From Persicimonas caeni (lineage in GTDB: Bacteria > Myxococcota_A > Bradymonadia > Bradymonadales > Bradymonadaceae), in contig NZ_CP041186.1 in assembly GCF_006517175.1 (NCBI RefSeq), positions 7,653,074 to 7,717,073 on the forward strand: a stretch of DNA of 64,000 nt, in the 5' to 3' direction. The position numbers and the translations under genes were made by a program. The number at the start of each line of letters is the position of its first letter. Within the stretch, counting starts at the first letter, position 1. This document shows, piece by piece, positions 7,613 through 57,943 of this stretch. The notes under the pieces were generated by a model, which made no database searches, was not told where the DNA came from, and saw only the letters and a list, made by a program, of their open reading frames with translations.

Positions 7613-7739
7613 GAAAACGCGACCGTAAACGCCTGCCCCAGTTCGCCTTTCTCCTGCTCGAACACACATTTGCAGAGGTGCCGGCGCCCATTCACCGCGC
7701 CGGCTTCTGTAATCTCCATTTTTGAAGGGGGAGGCAAAC

Positions 7740-8447
7740 ATGAAGAAGCGACGCATTGTACAACTTCTCGCGCTCGTGTTGACCGTGGCCATGGGCACCT
7801 TTGGCTGCGCGACCGGCGGCGAGGAGACAGAGACGACGATGGAGCCGTCGGAGCCGACCGCCCAGCAGATGCAGGCGATGGACTCCGGCCAGATTCTCTA
7901 TGTGCTCCAGACCGTTAACGACGCCGAGATTTCGCAGGCGCGCATGGCGATGAGGCGCTCACAGAACCCGGAGATCCAGACGACCGCCGAGATGATCATC
8001 GCGGATCACCAGGCGCTCAATCAGCGCATCCAGGACGTGGCCGAGCAGACCGATGCTCAGATGTCGGAGAGCCAGCTGAGCCGCGACATCTCGAACAAGG
8101 TGTCGCAGGTCGAGCAGCGCCTCGAGGGGCTGTCGGGCGAGGAGTTCGACCGCGAGTTTATGCGGTCGCAGGTCGAGCTGCACGATATCGCGCTGTCGAC
8201 GGCGCAGAACGAGTTGATGCCGGCGGCGCAGGACGCCCAGGTCCAGCAGGTGCTCTCCGATGCGTCGACCCGCTTCGAGCAACATCTGACGCTGGCTCGC
8301 CAGGGCTACCAGCAGATGCAAGACGAGGCGATTGGCGGTGGTCCCGAGGAGGACCAAGAGAAGATGGATCGTGACGAGATCGAGCAGGACGAGATCGACG
8401 AAGACGAGATGGACAAGGAGAAGATGGACGACGATCAGTGGCAGTGA
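7740..8447 (+). CDS. DUF4142 domain lipoprotein
   Basis: A 235-residue lipoprotein. The N-terminus is MKKRRIVQLLALVLTVAMG followed by TFGC, a lipobox with Cys23. Residues about 50-190 match the DUF4142 pattern: ferritin-like helices with QMQAMDSGQILYVLQTVND, AEMIIADHQALNQRIQDV and a C-terminal FEQHLTLARQGYQQM helix. The family is common in outer-layer proteins of Proteobacteria and its biochemical role is not settled. A 40-residue tail rich in Asp, Glu, Lys and Met is extra. The ATG at 7740 is chosen because AGGGGGAGG precedes it; an ATG 18 bp upstream is ignored because it would add residues before the signal peptide. The gene stands alone between repeats. Confidence 0.88.
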   Translation: MKKRRIVQLLALVLTVAMGTFGCATGGEETETTMEPSEPTAQQMQAMDSGQILYVLQTVNDAEISQARMAMRRSQNPEIQTTAEMIIADHQALNQRIQDVAEQTDAQMSESQLSRDISNKVSQVEQRLEGLSGEEFDREFMRSQVELHDIALSTAQNELMPAAQDAQVQQVLSDASTRFEQHLTLARQGYQQMQDEAIGGGPEEDQEKMDRDEIEQDEIDEDEMDKEKMDDDQWQ

Positions 8448-8459
8448 CCGGGATTCGGC

Positions 8460-8530
8460 GCGAGGGCATCCATGGCTTCAATACGAGGGCAAGATGCCCC
8501 TCACCGATTCGACGAGGGCCAAATGCCCTC
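8460..8530. repeat. Two to three units of the GAGGGC...GCCC(T)C palindrome
   Basis: GAGGGCAAGATGCCCCTC (8485-8502) and GAGGGCCAAATGCCCTC (8514-8530), with a partial unit GCGAGGGCATC near 8460. They belong to the same family as the seven-unit array at 11309-11512. They lie between the DUF4142 gene and the 3' end of the MYXO-CTERM gene, so the family brackets that gene on both sides. Confidence 0.75.
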
Positions 8531-8538
8531 GCGCCGAC

Positions 8539-11223
8539 TCATTTCGCACCAATGTGCAATGAGTAGCGTCTTCGCAGCGCGAACGCGGCCAGCACGCCCA
8601 AGAGTGTGACGGGCGCGCCTGGCCCCGGGTCTGGCTGGGAGTGTCGGCACATGCATCCGCTGGATGTCATCACGCCCCGCCCTCGCCTCTCTTCGACCCT
8701 GGCGTCGTTAGCGTCACCTCCGGCCGTATCGAGCGGATTGCCGACATCCGGGTTGCCGAATCCGGGGCGGCCGGGACCGGCGTCGACGGCGCGCGGCGAT
8801 TGGCACACGCCGTTGGCGCAGCTCCGTGAAGCGCAGTCGACGTCCAATCTGCACACCTCGCCCGCCTCACCCGGCAAGCCGATTGCCTGGACGTACAGCG
8901 GCGCTCTCGTCCGCTGCGGCGATGCCGCCACGCCCGAGTATGCAACGAAAAAGCCGCCCTGATCTCGGATGGCGAATGCGTCGACCGGTCGTTGGCTGCC
9001 GTCGACCACTGGTGCGAGGGGGGCATCGTCGAGCAGTTGCCAGCGAGAGTCGAGGCGTACCACCCCGGTTACGTTTGAGGTGGCTCCAACACGCAAAGTG
9101 GCGAGCATGGCCCGACGTCCGTGGGCCTGCTTGGGCACCCCGAGGCGTGCGATGGTGTCGGCGTCGTAGGTAGTCAGGGTCTGGAAGTCGCCGTCTTCGG
9201 TGACTGTCCCCAACCGCCACAGACCGCCGTCGGGCGCGTCGCTCGACTCGCGCCACATCGTGGTAACACCCTCCTCGGTCACGCCCAGTTCGAACGCGTC
9301 GATGGAGTCGGCTTCGACCATGTGTCGCGCGAGATGTTCGCGAAAGGTCCACGGGTGCGATGGAGGTGAAAATGCGTCCGACAGCATAAACGTCGAAAAC
9401 TGCACCACCGATTGGACGTTGTGTCGCCCCTGTTGCCCATGTTGAGCGACGACACAGTAGGTGTCGGTACAGGCGATTCGAACGTCGGGGTCGTAGACGT
9501 CGTCGACGACGGCGCGCCTCACTTGGTCACCATCCCTCAAAGCGAACACGAGAATGACGGTGTCGGTGCTGTGAGGGGCAAGATAAGCTGCGACGCCCAC
9601 ATGCTCGGAGCGTGCGACGTCGAAGAATCGCAGCTCTCCCTCGACTCGGTCGACGACCTCGAGCGTGCGTGCCTGGAGGCCTGCGACGCAGTCGTAGAAG
9701 TGGACGACGTCGAGACGCCGCTCGCTCTTGCGACTCCACGCCACATAGGTCTCGTTGTCGCGATCACACTCGACCCTATCCTCACCTGAAGCCTCGTCTG
9801 GAAATCCGAGGCCATCTCGGACAACCGGCGCGCCTGTTGCCGACAGCGTGGTCCCGAACGCGGCGGCGTAAGCAGGGTGGTTGGCCTCCGCCCATGTCAA
9901 AAGCGGGGCATCGCCCAGTTCAAAAAAGGCGACCTGCCGGATGGTGTTTGGCATGTACGTGTAGATTGGCAGTTCGTCGAGCATTTCGCCCGTAGAAGCC
10001 AAGTGGGCGTCCCTAGCGAACAAGTTGTCCCTTTGTACGCTGCGCAGCCCGGCGCCATCGTGGTCGATCGCGTCGACGGCATGGTAGCCGTGGTTAGTGA
10101 GCTCGAGCGTGTGAGACACGCCCAAGGTGTCGTCGGCGGCGAGCCTGCGAAAGCGACCATCGAGCGCGATGTCAGCCTGCAAGGGACTCGCCCGTGTGCG
10201 GCCGGTGACTACCACCAGAAAGCTGTCGCCGTGTGCCAGCAGACGCACGCGCCCCATAAAGGAGCCGTAGTCGTAAAAGATATCTGCAGCAGCTTCGAAG
10301 GAGAACGCCTCGAGCGGCGAGTGCGACCACTGGCCATCGGCTTCGACCGCGCCGACGAATACCTTATGGTGGCCGTCGCCGGTCTCTTCGGCCCACCCCA
10401 ATCGGCACGATCCGTTGGCCGAGCATGCCTGAGAGATGCCCGTCCAAGTGGGCGACATCGCAGGGAGCGGCGTCGGCGTCGACGCAAAGCTCTTGGTCAG
10501 CGGGTCGCCTCGAAGATGGACGTACCCATCATCGGCCTCGCCGAGGACGACGACTTGGCTGCCGTCGAAGTCGACGGCGTGCAGGTGCAGCGCCTGCTGA
10601 CTCGTCAAAACATCAGCGACTTCGCTTTCGGGCGCCCCGGCGTCGTCGATCCAGCGCGCTCGCACGATGCGCCCCGCCACTCCGCTGTACTCCCAGACCA
10701 CCACGTAGCCCGCGCCCGCCTTCGAGACGAGTGGCTTCGAGCAGGCGGTCGAGGGACCAACGCCGTCTACAGCGAAAACCTCAGTGGGCGTACCTTGTGC
10801 CGCCCCATCGTCCACGGAAATCTCTTGGGACCAGACGGAGCCGTTTTCGTCGCACCAGGCCACGACGAACTGGTCCTCGACGAGGCTGACGGAAGCGACC
10901 GGGTCGCGCGGATCGGGGAGGTTGCCCAGAAAACTCGGCTCGACCACTTGTTCAGCGGGGTTGCGGCGGAGCACGCCATAGTGCAACTCGTCCGGATAGC
11001 CGCTGGAGATGACCGCGCAGGTGCCGTCGTCGGCGCAAGCCATATCGAGCGAAAGCGCAGGACGGAGGAAAGGTATGGACTTCGCCTCGCCCACCTCGAA
11101 CGCTTGCCCAGCCCGCAGCGGTGGGCGGGCCTGAGCCGGCGGGCAGAACACATGGGCGCTCACCGCACAGATCGCTGCGGTGAGCAGCATGGTGAACTGT
11201 TGATTGGCTCGGGTACGAAGCAC
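8539..11223 (-). CDS. Large secreted MYXO-CTERM protein of unknown function
   Basis: An 894-residue protein with a signal peptide (LLTAAICAVSAHVFCPPAQA), a long beta-rich body with WRESS, TWAEANHP and GVVRLDSRW type segments, a CRLDVDCASRSCANGVC motif, a Gly/Asp/Pro linker and a MYXO-CTERM-like tail (SSGCMC, hydrophobic helix, RRRYS). Such tails direct proteins to the cell surface in myxobacteria. The start is taken as GTG at 11223: GGGGGG precedes it and it gives the signal peptide a basic n-region (VLRTRANQQ); ATG at 11190 is the alternative. The open frame continues further upstream only because the 30-bp repeat array has no stop in that frame. Paralogue of the broken gene at 5819-7282. 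The body may be a beta-propeller, which I cannot verify by eye. Confidence 0.85.
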   Translation of the reverse strand: MLRTRANQQFTMLLTAAICAVSAHVFCPPAQARPPLRAGQAFEVGEAKSIPFLRPALSLDMACADDGTCAVISSGYPDELHYGVLRRNPAEQVVEPSFLGNLPDPRDPVASVSLVEDQFVVAWCDENGSVWSQEISVDDGAAQGTPTEVFAVDGVGPSTACSKPLVSKAGAGYVVVWEYSGVAGRIVRARWIDDAGAPESEVADVLTSQQALHLHAVDFDGSQVVVLGEADDGYVHLRGDPLTKSFASTPTPLPAMSPTWTGISQACSANGSCRLGWAEETGDGHHKVFVGAVEADGQWSHSPLEAFSFEAAADIFYDYGSFMGRVRLLAHGDSFLVVVTGRTRASPLQADIALDGRFRRLAADDTLGVSHTLELTNHGYHAVDAIDHDGAGLRSVQRDNLFARDAHLASTGEMLDELPIYTYMPNTIRQVAFFELGDAPLLTWAEANHPAYAAAFGTTLSATGAPVVRDGLGFPDEASGEDRVECDRDNETYVAWSRKSERRLDVVHFYDCVAGLQARTLEVVDRVEGELRFFDVARSEHVGVAAYLAPHSTDTVILVFALRDGDQVRRAVVDDVYDPDVRIACTDTYCVVAQHGQQGRHNVQSVVQFSTFMLSDAFSPPSHPWTFREHLARHMVEADSIDAFELGVTEEGVTTMWRESSDAPDGGLWRLGTVTEDGDFQTLTTYDADTIARLGVPKQAHGRRAMLATLRVGATSNVTGVVRLDSRWQLLDDAPLAPVVDGSQRPVDAFAIRDQGGFFVAYSGVAASPQRTRAPLYVQAIGLPGEAGEVCRLDVDCASRSCANGVCQSPRAVDAGPGRPGFGNPDVGNPLDTAGGDANDARVEERRGRGVMTSSGCMCRHSQPDPGPGAPVTLLGVLAAFALRRRYSLHIGAK

Positions 11224-11308
11224 GGGCGCCCCCCAGGGATGAGCGAGAAATTCTTCCCGGGGATTGTGCCCGAAATAGGTGGTCTGCACAAATGGGGAGG
11301 TCGGTAAC

Positions 11309-11512
11309 GAGGGCAAGATGCCCCCGCACCGAGTCGACGAGGGCAAGATGCCCCCGCACCGAGTCGACGAGGGCAAGATGCCCACGCACCGAGTCGACGA
11401 GGGCAAGATGCCCACGCACCGAGTCGATGAGGGCAAGATGCCCACGCACCGAGTCGATGGGGGCAAATGCCCTCGCACCGAGTCGATGGGGGCAAATGCC
11501 CTCGCGCCTAGT
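11309..11512. repeat. Array of seven 30-bp palindromic repeats
   Basis: Units start at 11309, 11339, 11369, 11399, 11429, 11459 and 11488. The first five are 30 bp and nearly identical, the last two 29 bp or shorter. Each holds a small palindrome, GGGCAAGATGCCC or GGGCAAATGCCC, followed by the spacer CGCACCGAGTCGA(C/T). There are no unique spacers, so this is not a CRISPR. It fills the gap between the uvrA stop (11515) and the next minus-strand gene, where it could fold into serial hairpins in the uvrA mRNA. Confidence 0.95.
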
Positions 11513-11514
11513 GT

Positions 11515-14334
11515 TTATGCACTGGCGAGCAACTCGGCGAGGTATTTGCCGGTGTAGCTCCCCTCGCATTGGGCGACCTCGGCGGGCGTGCCTTCGGCGA
11601 CGAGCTTGCCGCCCGCCGGGCCGGCGCCCGGGCCCAGGTCGACCACGTGGTCGCACTGGGCGATGAAGTCGATATTGTGCTCGATGACGACGACGGTGTG
11701 GCCGTGGTCGACGAGTTGGTGCATCGCGTCGACGAGGGTCTCGACGTCGAGCATATGCAGGCCGACGGTGGGCTCGTCGAAGATGAAGAGCACCGGCTTG
11801 GTGTCGCCGCGCTTGCGGCCGTCGGCGATATAGGTCGCCAGCTTGAGGCGCTGGGCTTCGCCGCCCGACAGGGTCGCCGTCGTCTGGCCCAGGCGAAGGT
11901 AGCCCAAGCCCACGTCGATGAGCGGCTGGAGCTTTCGCACCAGCGGCTCGCGCTTGTGGAAGAACTCGATGGCCTCGTCGACGGTCATCTCGAAGACGTC
12001 GGCGATATTCTTGCCCCCGTATTCGACGTCGAGCACCCGCCGGCCGTAGCGCTGGCCGTCGCACTCCTCGCAGGTGACCTCGATGTCGGCCATGAAGTGC
12101 ATCTCGACGGTGATCGTGCCCGTTCCCTGACACTTCTCGCAGCGCCCACCCGGAGTGTTGAAGCTGAAGTCGCCGATCGACAGGCCGCTGACCTTCGCCT
12201 GGCGAGTGCCCGCGTAGATCTTGCGGACGTCGTCGAAGGCGCCGGTGTAGCTGAGCGCGTTCGAGCGGTTCGAGCGGCCCACGGCCGACTGGTCCATCAG
12301 CACGACGTCGTCGAAGATATCGAGGCCCTCGAGCGCGCCCACGGCGCCGGCTTCGACGCCGCCGCGGCCCTGCAGAGCTTTCCAGCCGTTATACAGAATG
12401 TCTTCGCACAGGGTCGACTTGCCCGAGCCGCTCACGCCGGTGACGACCGACAGGCGCTCGTAGGGGAGTTCGACGGTCAGGTCGTCGAGGTTGTGCTCGC
12501 GGGCGCCGACGATGCGCACGTGGCCGCTCGGCTTGGCGGTCTTGGGGTCGATCTGGACGCCGCGGCGACGCGCCAAGGTGCTGCTGGTGAGCGTCTCCTG
12601 GGCGTGGAACTCCTCGATGGGGCCGGCGAACATGATCTCGCCGCCCTGCTCTCCTCCGCGCGGGCCGATTTCGATAACGTAGTCGGCGCCCTCGATGACC
12701 TCGGGGTCGTGCTCGACGACGACGACTGTGTTGCCCAAGTCGCGGAGCTCGTAGAGCACCTCCATGAGGTTGTCGGTGTCGCGGGCGTGCATGCCTGCAG
12801 TCGGCTCGTCGAGGACGTACAGCGTGTCGGTGAGCGCGCGGCCGAGGCTCGTGGTCAGGTGGATGCGCTGCATCTCACCGCCCGAAAGCGTGCGTGACTG
12901 GCGGTCGAGCGACAGATACCCGCAGCCGATGGTGTCGAGGTAGTTGAGCCGATGGCGAATTTCCTCGATGAGCGTGGCCACGCGGGCGTACAGCTCCGGC
13001 GGAAGCTCCAGCTCGTCGAAGTACTCGCGGGCGACCTCGATGCGCATCTGCCAGATGTCGCTGATCGCCTTGCCGTGCACGGTGACGTTGCGCGCGCTCT
13101 GGTTGAGCCGGCTCCCCTTGCACTCCGGGCAGCGGTCGTAGCCGCGGTAGCGCGCCAAGAAGATGCGCACGTGCGTCTTGTACTGCTTGCTCTTGAGACT
13201 GTCGAAGAAGCCGCGAACGCCCTTCCAGCGCTTGCGGCCCACCTTGCCGCCCTCCTTGATGAAGTCCTGGTCCTCTTCGGGCAGCTTGAAGAACGGCACG
13301 TCGATGGGCGTGCCCCGCTCTTTGCACAGCTCGAGCAGCTTGCGGCGGTGTTTTTTGTATTTGGGCGTCTCGAAGCAGGCGATGGCGCCCTCGTCGAGGC
13401 TCAGGCCGGGGTTGGGGATGACCTTCTTGAAGTCGATGCCCATCACCTTGCCGAATCCCGAGCACTCGTCGCAGGCGCCGAGCGAGCTATTGAAGCTAAA
13501 GAGCGCCGGCTGCGGCTCGATGAAGTCGGTGCCGCACGAGTTGCAGCGAAACGCGCGGTCGAAGACGACCGGAGCCCGGTCGAGGTCGTCGTAGAAGTAG
13601 ACCTCGATGCGCCCCTTGCCCAGCCCGAAGCCCGCCTCGACGGCCTCCGAGATGCGCATGCCCTCGCCCTCGCGCACCTTGATGCGGTCGATGACCACCG
13701 GGAAGGCGTCGCGGTCGAGCAGCGACTCGATGTCGGTCTCGGTGATGTCGATCGTCTCGCCGTCGATAAACAGGCGCCGGTAGCCCTCTTGGACGAGGTG
13801 CTTGAGCACGGCGTGGCGGTGCTCTTCCTGAGGCGCCTCGGACTCGGCGACGATGATGAGGCGCGTGCCCTCTTCGAACGACTCGATCTCGGAGACGACG
13901 CCCGGCACCGTGTCGCGAACCACCGCGATATTGCACTTGGGGCAAGTCGTCTCGCCGATGTGGGTGTAGAGAAGCTGCAGGTGGTCGTCGACCTCGGTGA
14001 TCGTACCGACCGTCGAGCGAGCGTTGGAGACCTCGTTCTTCTGGCGAAGCGCCAGCGCCGGCTGGATATTCTTGACCGACTCGACCGGCGGTCGCTCCAT
14101 GCGCTGCAAAAACTGGCGCGCGTAGGTCGACAGCGACTCGGTGTAGCGGCGCTGCCCCTCGGCGTACAACGTGTCGAAGGCGAGGCTCGACTTGCCCGAG
14201 CCGCTCACCCCGTTGATGACGGTGAGCTTGCCGTGCGGGATGTCGCAGTCGATGCCCTTGAGGTTGTGAGTGCGCACCCCGCGCAGGCTGACGGTCTCGG
14301 CTTTGGGCGGGTACTTCTTAGCGGCTTGAGTCAT
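11515..14334 (-). CDS. uvrA: Excinuclease ABC subunit UvrA
   Basis: UvrA is the ATPase that finds bulky DNA lesions and loads UvrB in nucleotide excision repair. The 939 residues carry two ABC ATPase units: Walker A GVSGSGKSS (42-50) and GVSGSGKST (about 630), two LSGGE signatures, and two zinc fingers (CNSCG with CDECSG; CEKCQGTG with CEECDG). The segment GGRCEKCQGTGTITVEMHF is typical of the family. The region after the first Walker A (ALALRQKNEVSNARSTVGT) differs from the E. coli form but keeps the NARSTVGT core. Length fits the family. The ATG is 7 bp after the stop of a TPR lipoprotein gene, so the two are probably cotranscribed. Stop is TAA, followed by the palindrome array. Confidence 0.96.
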   Translation of the reverse strand: MTQAAKKYPPKAETVSLRGVRTHNLKGIDCDIPHGKLTVINGVSGSGKSSLAFDTLYAEGQRRYTESLSTYARQFLQRMERPPVESVKNIQPALALRQKNEVSNARSTVGTITEVDDHLQLLYTHIGETTCPKCNIAVVRDTVPGVVSEIESFEEGTRLIIVAESEAPQEEHRHAVLKHLVQEGYRRLFIDGETIDITETDIESLLDRDAFPVVIDRIKVREGEGMRISEAVEAGFGLGKGRIEVYFYDDLDRAPVVFDRAFRCNSCGTDFIEPQPALFSFNSSLGACDECSGFGKVMGIDFKKVIPNPGLSLDEGAIACFETPKYKKHRRKLLELCKERGTPIDVPFFKLPEEDQDFIKEGGKVGRKRWKGVRGFFDSLKSKQYKTHVRIFLARYRGYDRCPECKGSRLNQSARNVTVHGKAISDIWQMRIEVAREYFDELELPPELYARVATLIEEIRHRLNYLDTIGCGYLSLDRQSRTLSGGEMQRIHLTTSLGRALTDTLYVLDEPTAGMHARDTDNLMEVLYELRDLGNTVVVVEHDPEVIEGADYVIEIGPRGGEQGGEIMFAGPIEEFHAQETLTSSTLARRRGVQIDPKTAKPSGHVRIVGAREHNLDDLTVELPYERLSVVTGVSGSGKSTLCEDILYNGWKALQGRGGVEAGAVGALEGLDIFDDVVLMDQSAVGRSNRSNALSYTGAFDDVRKIYAGTRQAKVSGLSIGDFSFNTPGGRCEKCQGTGTITVEMHFMADIEVTCEECDGQRYGRRVLDVEYGGKNIADVFEMTVDEAIEFFHKREPLVRKLQPLIDVGLGYLRLGQTTATLSGGEAQRLKLATYIADGRKRGDTKPVLFIFDEPTVGLHMLDVETLVDAMHQLVDHGHTVVVIEHNIDFIAQCDHVVDLGPGAGPAGGKLVAEGTPAEVAQCEGSYTGKYLAELLASA

Positions 14335-28221: not shown

Positions 28222-30975
28222 ATGGATGTCATGGAGAAGTGTGCAGCGGTCAGGCCTTCAGCGAGTGGTTTAGTGCGGCGTTTTCGTTCCCTAGTGGCGC
28301 TCTCGGCGTTCGTAGCGGCGGCCAGTTGGACCGTCGATGCATCGGCCTCGTGCACGACGATCGAGGATTTCGAGAGTGGGTGGCCGAACTCGCCGTGGAC
28401 TGTCTACGACCTTCCCGGTACGCGCACGACCACCTACAGCCGGAGCGGATCATACGGCGTTCAGAACCCGGACTGGGTCTATCGCACGGACGTGACGATC
28501 GGGCAGCAGGCCGGCGAGCGATTGGGGTTGTGGTTTCACGGGTCGACGGCGAGCAGCGGTCGGGTTTATCTGGGCTTCGACGCTGACGGGTCGGGCGCCA
28601 AGACCTTCATCGCCTCGCTCAACACCACTGATATCCGGTTTCAGGACAACGCCGGCTACAACCACACCCAGCTCAATCAGACGAGCCAGACCTTCAACTC
28701 GCAGTGGTACTACTTGGAGGTGGAGTTCAACGGTGGCGGAAGTGTCACCGGCCGGCTGTACGACTCCGACGGCACCACCCTCATCAATAGCTTGACGCAG
28801 AGTTTCAGCGGCTCGGTCGTCGGCGGCGTGGTCTTGCGCGCGTTCGACGACAACGTCATCGACGACGTGATTCACTGCACGCCCAACGATGCCCCGACCG
28901 CCTCCAACGACAGCTACGGCGTCGACGAGGACGGTCTGCTCGACGTGTCGCCCAGCGGCGTGTTGGCCAACGATACTGATCCGGACGGCGATGCGTTGAC
29001 GGCGAGCGTGGTCAGCGGGCCGTCGAACGGCACGCTCAATCTGAGCGCGAACGGCGGGTTCACCTACGAGCCCGCCCCGAACTTTCACGGGAGCGACAGC
29101 TTTACGTACCGAGCGAGCGACGGAGACGGCGGCAGCGATACGGCGACGGTGAATATCAGCGTCGGCTCGGTCAATGACGCGCCCGTTTTCACGTCGACTC
29201 CGGTGACGAGCGCGACCGAAGATCAGCCGTATAGCTACCTGGTGACGGCGACCGACGTCGATACGGGCGACAGCCTGACGATTTCGTTGGCGACTCGGCC
29301 CTCGTGGCTTGGATTGTCACTCGGGAGCGGCGGGTCGGCGACTCTGTCGGGCACGCCGAGCAACGCCGACGTGGGCCCTCACTCGGTGGAGGTCGTCGTT
29401 CGAGACGGAAACGGCGGGAGCGACACTCAGACCTTCACGATCGACGTCCAGAACGTCAACGACGCGCCCTACTTCGTCGATCCGACGCCGCAAGACGGAG
29501 CGACGTTGAGCGTGGTCGAGGGCGATACGCTCTCGTTTACGCTGGCCGGCGCGGACGACGACGGCGATACGCTCACCTACGGTGTCGACTCCGTGCCGAC
29601 CGGCGCGAGCTTCGACGCTTCGACGGGCGCGTTCAGTTGGACGCCGACCTGGTAGGATGCCGGGGCGTATCCGTGGACGCTTCGCGTGAGCGACGGGCAA
29701 CTCGAGGAGACGCGCGCGATCACCGCACAGGTCACCTTCATCGACGCGGACGCCGACGAATTGCCCGATACGTGGGAGAACCAGAACGGCCTCGACCCGA
29801 CCACGCCCGACTCCGATGGCGACACGATTGCGGACGTCGACGAGGTCGGTGACCTGAGCGATCCTGCAGACACCGACGGCGACGGCACGCTCGACGCGCT
29901 CGATGACGACAGCGACGGCGACGGGCTGCTCGACAGTGAGGAATCCGGCGACGACGACCTGGCTACCCTGCCCGTCGACACCGACGCGGACGAAATCCAA
30001 GACTACCGCGACGCCGACAGCGACGACGACGGCGTCGACGATGCCGACGACAATTGCCCGGTCACGGTCAACGCCGCGCAGGAGGATACCGACGGCGACG
30101 GCGCGGGCGACGCGTGTGACGACGACGCCGACAACGACGGATTGAACGACGCCGACGAGCCGGGCCTCGGCCTCGACCCGACGCTCGCCGATAGCGACGG
30201 CGACGGCATCGACGACGGCACCGAGGTCGGCGACGACGTCAATAACCCGCTCGACTCCGATGGCGACTCGACCATCGACGCCCTCGACGAGGATAGCGAC
30301 GACGACGGCGTCCTCGACGCCGACGAGCATGGCATGGGCGACGACGGCGGCGAGCCGGTCGACACCGACTCGGACGGCAAAGCCGACTTCCGCGACACCG
30401 ACAGCGACGACGACACCGTCGAAGACGGCGCGGACAACTGCCGTCTCGTGGCCAACACGGATCAGGCCGACGCCGACGGCAACGGCGTGGGCGACGCGTG
30501 CGACGGCGATTCAGACGGCGACGGTGTTGGCAACGGCCAGGATAACTGCCCGGCGGTCGCCAACGCCGACCAGGCTGACCTCGACGGGGATGCGACCGGC
30601 GACGCATGCGACGGCGACGTCGACGGTGACGGCGTCGACAATGACGCCGACAATTGCATGCTCACCGACAACGCCGACCAAGCCGACCTCGACGCCGATA
30701 GCTTGGGCGACGCGTGTGACGACGACACCGACGGCGACGGCGTCGCCAACGGCGAGGACAACTGCCCCACGGTCGAAAACCCCGAGCAATCCGACCCCGA
30801 TGCCGACGGCAAAGGTCGGGCGTGCGACGACGTCGAGGAGGGCTTGGAGGGCGGACAGGTCGCCGAAGCCGGATGCGGCTGCTCGTCGACTGGCCTGCCG
30901 GCCAACGGGGCGAGCGCCCTAGTCTTTTTGTTCGGGGTCGTCGCGTTGCGGCTGCGTCGGCGTCGGCGTCGCTAA
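28222..30975 (+). pseudogene. Cadherin-like / TSP3-repeat MYXO-CTERM protein interrupted by TAG
   Basis: One frame of 918 codons, broken only by TAG at 29653-29655 (codon 478). Before it: signal peptide (ALSAFVAAASWTVDASA), a jelly-roll-like domain starting CTTIEDFESG, a cadherin-like domain (NDAPTASNDSYGVDEDG to YRASDGDGGSDTATVNIS), and two Ig-like/putative-Ig domains with FSWTPTW at the break. After it the same fold resumes with DAGAYPWTLRVSDGQ, then about 25 DxDxDG calcium loops of the thrombospondin type 3 kind with NCP-type cysteines, and a MYXO-CTERM tail (GCGCSST, hydrophobic helix, Arg run). The continuity of the fold shows this is one gene. Probably a large calcium-stabilised surface adhesin. 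Could be a nonsense mutant, a sequencing error or readthrough. Start chosen at ATG 28222; ATG 28231 is possible. Confidence 0.8.
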
Positions 30976-56554: not shown

Positions 56555-57943
56555 ATGATCGACAAGCCCCAAGACCACCTCGACGCCCCATCCACGGGGC
56601 CAGTGGAGGCCCAACAAGAAGACCCATCGGACGACACATTCGAGCCGAAGGCGTATTTTTGGGGCGCTTGGCATCTCATCAAGCAAGATCTGTTCATCTT
56701 CGCCTGGAAGTTGCTCGCCGACGGCGCCCGCGCGGTCGTCTCGATCGCGACGCTGCTCGCCATCGGCGTGGTGCTCTTCGTGAGCCTCACCGGCGCGATG
56801 GCGACCAAGGCCGGGCCGATCGTCGGCTTCGAACGCTTCGTGGCCGACCTGGCGACCCCGCAATTCGTCATTGGCGCGGCCGGACTGCTCTTTTGCGCCT
56901 GGCTCATCGGGCTGACCCTCGACGTGCTCGCGCTGTCGGGCATCTGGGGCACCTTCGCCCAGGGCGCGCGCGGAAAACCGATTCGGCGCTTTCGCACCTT
57001 CTTCGCGAACCTGACCACACGCTTCCCGGCGGTCCTGAGCCTGCGCATCACCACACTCGCCGCGCAGGGCATCGTCGGGCTTCTCGGCTTGATGGTGCTC
57101 GTGGGCATCTGGGGTGCGACGACCGGCGACGGAACCTTCGCCGACTCGTCGGTGTGGGTGCGCGCGCTGTTGTGGGCGACGCCGCTCACCATAATGGCCG
57201 GCTTCGCCGCGCTCGTTCGCCTGACCATGGAGGTCGCCGCCGCCCCGCTCATCATGGAGCGACGCGCCCTCGGAGACGCCATCGCCACCGCCGCCGAGCT
57301 CGTCACGCGCCGCTTTGCTCAGGTCTACCGCCTGGTCATCGTCGCCGCCGGGCTCTTGCTCGTGCCGCTGTTCTTCTACTGGGGCGTGCTCATCTTTCAG
57401 AACCTGACGCTCGACATGCCGGAATTGGCGCCCTTGACCGGCATGTTGCGTCTTGTAGGCGAAGTCGTCCTCTTTGTGACCACCGGCGCCATCGCCGTAG
57501 CCTTCTACGGCGCCCTCTTTGTGTACTACGCAGTCGAGATGGGCATGATCGACGAGATTCCCGGCGAAAAAGAGAAGAAAGACAAGGCGGCCAATCCGTC
57601 GTTTGCTGCACGTGGCCCAGGTGCCGAGCAGCCGTGCGGACCGAGGTCTGGGCCGGTGCGCTTCGACAAGCACACGACCATCGAAGAGCTGCTGCCCGTC
57701 GAGTACCCGAATATTATGACCGTCGACGAGGTGCTCGGCACTGAACCTTCGGAGGCAGACGCCCCCTTGGAGGCAGACCTTCCAGGTCTGGAAAACGACC
57801 AGACCTCGGAGGCAGACGCCCCCTTGGAGGCAGACCTTCCAGGTCTGGAAAACGACCACGTCTCGGACGTGGCTGACGACGAGCGATTCGACGACATTTC
57901 AGGCGACGACGTATTTGACTCTACTGAAGACAAAGACACATGA
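56555..57943 (+). CDS. Polytopic membrane protein with acidic repetitive tail
   Basis: A 462-residue protein with a hydrophilic N-terminus (about 40 residues), about six membrane helices between 48 and 330 (with an AAPLIMERRALGDAIATA segment often seen in DUF-type 'glycerophosphoryl diester' membrane domains), and a 120-residue acidic tail. The tail contains an exact 57-bp duplication encoding SEADAPLEADLPGLENDQT-type units (57749-57862). No family named with confidence. It ends in a 4-bp overlap (ATGA) with the next gene, so both products are made together and may interact. Confidence 0.85.
   Translation: MIDKPQDHLDAPSTGPVEAQQEDPSDDTFEPKAYFWGAWHLIKQDLFIFAWKLLADGARAVVSIATLLAIGVVLFVSLTGAMATKAGPIVGFERFVADLATPQFVIGAAGLLFCAWLIGLTLDVLALSGIWGTFAQGARGKPIRRFRTFFANLTTRFPAVLSLRITTLAAQGIVGLLGLMVLVGIWGATTGDGTFADSSVWVRALLWATPLTIMAGFAALVRLTMEVAAAPLIMERRALGDAIATAAELVTRRFAQVYRLVIVAAGLLLVPLFFYWGVLIFQNLTLDMPELAPLTGMLRLVGEVVLFVTTGAIAVAFYGALFVYYAVEMGMIDEIPGEKEKKDKAANPSFAARGPGAEQPCGPRSGPVRFDKHTTIEELLPVEYPNIMTVDEVLGTEPSEADAPLEADLPGLENDQTSEADAPLEADLPGLENDHVSDVADDERFDDISGDDVFDSTEDKDT
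57749..57862. repeat. 57-bp direct tandem duplication inside a coding region
   Basis: Units at 57749-57805 and 57806-57862 are nearly identical (19 codons each, reading SEADAPLEADLPGLEND). A small palindrome (CCTTCCAGGTCTGGAA) lies in each. The length is a multiple of three, so the frame is kept. Confidence 0.95.

Follow-up and report, generated by a model that had tools for sequence, protein, structure and literature searches.

The tandem palindromes beside uvrA of Persicimonas caeni are very probably repetitive extragenic palindromic (REP) units of a REPIN that was dispersed through the genome by the transposase RAYT-A and subsequently amplified in place as head-to-tail arrays. The window, i.e. 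the whole stretch of DNA that was analysed, comprises 64,000 nucleotides (positions 7,653,074 to 7,717,073 of contig NZ_CP041186.1), and its features are listed in Table 1 together with those found elsewhere in the genome.

Arrays on either side of one gene

Tandem Repeats Finder detected an array at 11307-11512 with a period of 30, 6.9 copies, 96% matches and a score of 321. The original prediction described this array as seven units with a strict 30-bp spacing. This description applies to five exact GGGCAAGATGCCC units, which start at 11311, 11341, 11371, 11401 and 11431 with a constant 30-bp step, whereas the two units proximal to uvrA are variants (GGGGCAAATGCCC) that are spaced by 29 bp, have lost one loop base and extend up to 11508. 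On the minus strand the unit reads GGTG-CGNGGGCA-TCT-TGCCCTCG, after which comes a spacer that is TCGACTC in the case of the uvrA array. Further units had been noticed near 8460-8530, and the segment 8452-8540 does contain two, an exact one at 8487-8499 and a variant at 8516-8528, as well as an inverted partner. This partner, which is 18 nt long and 94% complementary to 8523-8540, is probably the leftover of a head-to-head dimer. When up to two mismatches were allowed, 15 matches were observed in the window, whereas 100 shuffles gave 2.0 on average and never more than 7. NCBIfam was searched with both genes that adjoin the 8452-8540 site, and neither matched. The window also contains a tandem repeat at 30392-30806 (108-bp period, 3.8 copies), which is probably the coding region of a repeat protein.

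Table 1. Features of the REP system in the window and elsewhere in the P. caeni genome
Feature	Position	Strand	Remarks
Seven right-hand REP units, head-to-tail	11307..11512	-	GGTG tag on minus strand, same strand as uvrA
Five exact units of the uvrA array	11308-11330, 11338-11360, 11368-11390, 11398-11420, 11428-11450		Spacer TCGACTC
Two right-hand REP units, 29 bp apart	8484..8535	-	Between 3' ends of convergent genes
Degenerate inverted partner GGCGCGAGGGCAT	8452..8469	+	Complementarity to 8523-8540
uvrA	11515..14334	-	NCBIfam UvrA, E 6.4e-303; stop codon 3 bases from array
Gene between both REP sites (MYXO-CTERM gene of the original prediction)	8539..11229	-	Start codon inferred
Convergent gene beside the 8452-8540 site	7722..8447	+
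GGAG-tagged REP GGAGGCAGACCTTCCAGGTCTGG, two copies in a 57-bp tandem repeat	57769..57848	+	Apparently within predicted gene 56555-57943
RAYT-A, 248 aa	genome 5453046-5453789, outside window		Flanked by inverted hairpins
Leader examples	L205, about 1970-2020; L356, L390, L393

Copy number and anatomy of the REPIN

The exact GGGCAAGATGCCC 13-mer is present in 426 copies in the 8,047,206-bp contig, 250 on the plus and 176 on the minus strand, while the reversed control gave 0. A genome-wide search of the unit had been proposed, and its result excludes the case in which units occur nowhere else. The 13-mer was found in only 0-4 copies each in 56 relatives, none of the same genus, and none of 11 stretches around single copies in these relatives contained an array.

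Around single copies in the P. caeni genome we observed a complete element of ~55 bp, TTCGGTGCGAGTGCTTCCAGCTCTCGC-NNN-CGAGGGCAAGATGCCCNCGCACCGAA, of which the window palindrome is the right half. The layout is GGTG-(hairpin, loop TCC)-NNN-(hairpin, loop TCT)-CACC, such that two unlike hairpins point towards one another and the outer foot of either is GGTG or GGAG. Genome-wide there are 68 exact copies of the left core. Closer counts were obtained from a sample of 2.064 Mb (roughly one quarter of the genome), which contained 126 right REPs with up to four mismatches (reversed control 1), 48 left REPs (control 0) and 38 left-right dimers with a start-to-start offset of 27 bases; only this offset was counted, and a few other dimers have an offset of 25. 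Clusters were allowed to include units with up to five mismatches (four for one motif), and single units with five were dropped. The foot tag of 72 right units was GGTG in 48 and GGAG in 9, and the loop was TCT in 67. All stem positions except one had the standard pair in 57-70 of these units, and the third pair from the foot was non-Watson-Crick in 50; choosing the units by consensus similarity favours such uniformity, although in the right unit the search motif did not cover the unpaired position. In 30 left units, chosen in the same manner, the loop was TCC in 25 and the fifth pair was T-T in 22. The accessible text of PMC8266576 describes loop and stem irregularities as recognition features in some groups.

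These short, dispersed, high-copy palindromes are REPs, and the dimers, each consisting of two inverted REPs with outer tags and a short linker, are REPINs. The foot is a GNNG tetranucleotide in the correct place, yet it is not GTRG. The canonical tag is GTAG/GTGG, whereas here it is GGTG/GGAG. GTAG-type REPs and REP clusters are dealt with in PMC3733652, in the accessible text of which neither 'myxo' nor 'deltaproteo' appears.

A RAYT gene between inverted REPs

A Pfam search identified 26 Y1_Tnp genes of several unrelated types in the genome. Four exact cores are present at the RAYT-A locus (L205) and none at the loci of the other 25 genes, each taken as a whole. Upstream of RAYT-A lie five REPs that share an orientation, four of them close matches and the fifth a variant; downstream, one exact and one degenerate REP point the opposite way. 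A search for a REP-associated transposase, which had been suggested along with the REP analogy, yielded one RAYT gene that has inverted REPs of the family native to this genome on both sides.

RAYT-A matched the NCBIfam model REP_Tyr_transpos at 4.5e-18 with 65.5 bits, which falls short of the curated cut-off (80); as this model is an equivalog, the score counts against the exact subfamily and not against the wider group. The match to Pfam Y1_Tnp (30.9 bits) was above cut-off. A profile built from RAYT-A and nine homologues gave E. coli TnpA-REP (4er8) as the top match in the PDB (4.7e-7), while RAYT-A alone as the query retrieved no transposase from the PDB. The HUH residues H125 and H127, as well as W165, are invariant. 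RAYT-A has NHAH in place of the NHVH of most relatives, and YIWHNA in place of their Y..NP, so that its activity is not assured. From its position, the NCBIfam and Pfam matches, the invariant HUH and Trp residues and the top PDB profile match, we conclude that RAYT-A is a RAYT and that, together with the flanking REPs, it constitutes a RAYT-REP 'REPtron'. The arrangement is like that of the REPIN-RAYT systems and REPtrons described in the accessible text of PMC2817692, with a single RAYT gene between inverted REPs. In contrast, the experimentally studied RAYTs in the accessible texts of PMC2817692 and PMC8266576 are gammaproteobacterial, and the RAYT-REP link here is positional only. By motif alone, RAYT-A (NHAH / WQ / YIWHNA) can be likened to TnpA-Y1 subclass 2.4 (Bertels group 4), for which the accessible text of PMC6006769 gives NH[IFV]H, WQ and YIxNNP, long canonical REPs and an occurrence in various phyla.

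A protein search revealed two further RAYT-A homologues in the genome. The flanks of the third RAYT homologue (4723051, 40%) do not contain GGGCAAGATGCCC. The RAYTs are single-copy; a separate Y1_Tnp type is multicopy, mostly 320-325 aa long, and has ACGGTGTCAGACACCGT hairpin flanks (L186, L189, L192-L201, others).

We propose that the ~55-bp REPIN is a non-autonomous mobile element that would be dispersed by the single-copy HUH enzyme RAYT-A, which would cut and copy it as folded single-stranded DNA. Insertions would persist where they are least harmful, i.e. behind genes. After insertion the REPIN, or the right REP alone, would be multiplied by slippage or template switching at the hairpin, and the array spacer would be whatever local DNA was captured.

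Genomic placement

Genes were called with a home-made codon-usage caller. Although ~85% of the 2.064-Mb sample is coding, 37 of 39 strong family-A clusters were extragenic. These counts omit 11 weak family-A clusters that had no unit with three or fewer mismatches; nine of them were inside genes, as chance matches would give. Convergent genes flanked 15 of the 37 extragenic clusters, co-directional genes 19 and divergent genes 3, compared with shares of 17.5%, 54% and 28.5% of intergenic bases, respectively (convergent excess, p 8.5e-4; divergent deficit, p 0.0025). For co-directional clusters the median distance was 64 bp to the stop codon of the gene upstream and 218 bp to the start of the gene downstream. 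Siting of REPs near gene 3' ends, as here, is described in the accessible text of PMC3733652. The dispersed high-copy tagged palindromes, the head-to-head dimers, the extragenic 3'-end sites and the RAYT gene flanked by the same hairpins all bear out the analogy with REP/BIME elements that was drawn from the window. A special role of the flanking arrays for the enclosed MYXO-CTERM gene had also been suggested. This suggestion is not supported: such clusters occur throughout the genome, with 39 strong family-A ones in the 2.064-Mb sample, and their sites follow gene 3' ends, so that the pair of arrays around the MYXO-CTERM-type gene represents two ordinary placements.

The adjacency of the clusters to gene 3' ends and their position between convergent genes would also be expected if the hairpins were kept chiefly as RNA devices, either terminators or stabilisers of the 3' ends of upstream mRNAs, with their number tuned by selection. 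The array downstream of uvrA folded as RNA with -131.9 kcal/mol and a z of -9.55 that is inflated by the repeats. However, a terminator needs no fixed dimer geometry, matched RAYT or tag conservation, a T-run and a terminator-like site are both absent between 8400 and 11700, and tolerated insertion sites explain the placement equally well. We therefore regard a chiefly RNA-level function as possible but rather unlikely. It is nonetheless compatible with dispersal by RAYT-A and amplification in place, and the array hairpins may plausibly affect mRNA ends.

No replication-strand bias is claimed, as 27 of 42 left-REP clusters fit one rule relative to dnaA and 15 do not (p 0.09). The dnaA gene (C-terminal domain) is at 3303453-3303656; the contig start is thus apparently not the origin, and the GC skew of sampled tiles agrees.

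Growth of the arrays

Spacer identity was 0.91 within arrays (116 pairs) and 0.24 between arrays (704 pairs), the latter being about the level of unrelated DNA. Because spacers are alike within arrays and unlike between them, units were spread first and multiplied locally afterwards. The units thus have a common descent and the spacers do not, every array having grown in situ; the simplest cause would be slippage during replication, or a switch of template, at a hairpin. Seven arrays with at least three right REPs in the sample had periods of 28, 28, 29, 30, 31, 31 and 36, whereas REPIN arrays had periods of 54, 62, 69 or 74. A search of 73 clusters for empty sites and target duplications found none; one spanning match that was considered as an empty site turned out to be a degenerate repeat alignment.

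Tandem REP clusters are a feature of E. coli BIME-2 as well as of this genome, and gyrase binding by BIME-2 is reported in the accessible text of PMC2817692. Arrays that structure the chromosome in the same way, by binding gyrase or a nucleoid protein, are nevertheless improbable here. BIME-2 repeats a BIME with alternating REPs, according to the same text, whereas many of the present arrays repeat one REP directly, head-to-tail; alternating REP orientation was seen in REPIN arrays (periods 54-74) and not in right-REP arrays (28-36).

A 1.7-kb IS with a 514-aa ORF, found in the genome 1002150 and 4043865 regions, has a right REP close to the left of its two ends, and the degenerate end by the 1002150 copy has the variant hairpin GGAG-CCAGGGCATCTTGCCCTGG. 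Part of the REP spread is hitch-hiking on this IS. Carriage of the unit by one IS, and the outer inverted repeat TTCGGTGCG/CGCACCGAA, might be taken to mean that the element is a MITE spread by a DDE transposase via its terminal inverted repeats. We consider this very improbable, since the unit is internal to the IS, the IS ends differ (CTGGAGTTTCGCC), no target duplication was noticed and the hairpins flank an HUH transposase gene. Regular spacing within the window is the one feature that would fit a duplication confined to this locus, a CRISPR-like array or integron attC sites, and these have next to no probability given the 426 dispersed copies, the 91% likeness of spacers within arrays where CRISPR spacers are unlike, and an Rfam search of 8000-12000 of the window with zero matches.

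A second family with a GGAG tag

A paralogue of RAYT-A with 62% identity has one in-frame TAG stop and is situated inside GGAG-tagged arrays, namely GGAGGCAGCGCTTCGAGCGCTG (30-bp period, 11 units upstream) and GGAGGCAGACCATCTTGGTCTGG. The GGAG family comprises 111 copies genome-wide (exact pattern). Tandem arrays border the RAYT genes themselves, and the two RAYTs are thus associated with the two tags, GGTG and GGAG. In the window, a perfect 57-bp tandem repeat at 57746-57858 includes a GGAG-tagged REP within a predicted gene; as the repeat length is a multiple of three, this REP has apparently turned into coding sequence. The relative G008 has a RAYT relative with stops and, along one side of it, eight hairpins at a 44-bp period.

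The same 13-mer and triloops in other phyla

The 13-mer was found in pairs, 10-40 bases apart, in at least 120 stretches (80 loci among the matches listed, from which the P. caeni genome was perhaps left out), which belong to cyanobacteria, planctomycetes, verrucomicrobia, Chloroflexi, Fimbriimonadia, Poribacteria and others. Inspected by eye, the foreign loci typically show units repeated in tandem, with spacers of local sequence and a right edge that reads CCAC, CTAC or CTCC, equivalent to GTGG, GTAG or GGAG feet. For 35 of these loci, 33 genomes having GGGCAAGATGCCC pairs were searched, and a RAYT-A homologue was identified at E 1e-5 in 20 of them. No homologue was detected at this threshold in the other 13, in which either another transposase serves or the homologue was missed.

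Around 41 RAYT homologues, located out of 42 loci (the two of P. caeni included), 104 of 124 triloop hairpins had a TCT or TCC loop on one strand, and 15 of the remaining 20 were TCG loops of the pseudogene. The corresponding control values were 2 of 79 in REP-free windows of the P. caeni genome and 27 of 70 in array-free windows of other genomes, which are REP-rich. Leaving aside the two P. caeni loci, a TCY hairpin was present at 15 of 23 loci with E < 1e-20 (on both sides at 11) and at 21 of 39 loci with any E (both sides at 16). A TCY/RGA hairpin within 600 bases was missing at 8 of the 23, some of which are truncated at a contig end or carry loops of four bases, and at 18 of the 39. Our reading of these data is that this RAYT clade may recognise GC-rich stems that bear a tag and a TCY triloop, although the loci without such a hairpin and the 13 genomes without a detected homologue count against it; such common recognition would explain why a few cores, including GGGCATCTTGCCC, recur in unrelated bacteria.

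A promoter-like leader shared by the transposase genes

All 26 Y1/HUH transposase genes carry a leader, composed of ACGCAAC, 13-14 bases and TGCCGAAAACC, about 40-60 bases before the start codon; 24 match the slightly relaxed pattern ACGCAAC-N6..20-TG[C/T]CGA[A/T]AACC and two nearly do. The strict leader occurs 64 times genome-wide (reversed control 0). In all 50 of these sites that were examined the gap was 13 or 14 bases, even though the pattern allowed more; 17 of the 50 head a dispersed noncoding repeat, 10 precede Y1 genes and 23 precede other reading frames. The dispersed repeat is some 500 bases long, starts with the leader (TTTTTGCCGAAAACCGTAATGAGGGGTGG) and has no clear ORF (L351, L357, L362-L364, L366, others). 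The 23 other reading frames include DprA, double-zinc-ribbon ComF/GntX-type, YraN, DUF559, 23S-IVP and SctV (export) genes, the families of which were confirmed, and one more gene each of the DUF559 and IVP types that was recognised by eye. G008 has two exact leader sites, before a Y1-type gene and a SctR/FliP-like gene (by eye), and a search of three other relatives found none.

The -10-like part of the leader, GCCGAAAA, presumably resembles the sigma-28/FliA consensus, and one protein of the genome (gene 3128843-3129487) scored above the FliA_WhiG cut-off. We advance the hypothesis that the genes behind the leader would form a competence-linked regulon. REP mobilisation might, with considerable doubt on our part, be wired into a DNA-uptake programme; the elements would then be cut and copied during the handling of single-stranded DNA in uptake, perhaps from prey. 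No title among the matches listed in a literature search on the leader addresses a shared leader.

Implications

This kind of element, a REP/REPIN with a RAYT, is known, and we found no earlier report of it in this predatory lineage. Literature searches found no paper containing GGGCAAGATGCCC and none joining Bradymonadales with 'repetitive extragenic palindromic', and no title among the matches listed for the core hairpin strings concerns REPs. The present member of this kind has a non-standard tag and well-developed head-to-tail arrays.

If the shared promoter is real, it would tell at which times expression of these domesticated transposases is turned on. To the known REP/RAYT systems P. 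caeni adds one in which a single genome has two transposase-tag pairs, GGTG and GGAG, that can be told apart. One simple rule, namely a GC-rich stem that bears a tag and is closed by a TCY triloop, unites the hairpins beside homologous RAYTs in several phyla, and the many arrays with their locus-specific spacers constitute a natural record of the multiplication of repeats in place.
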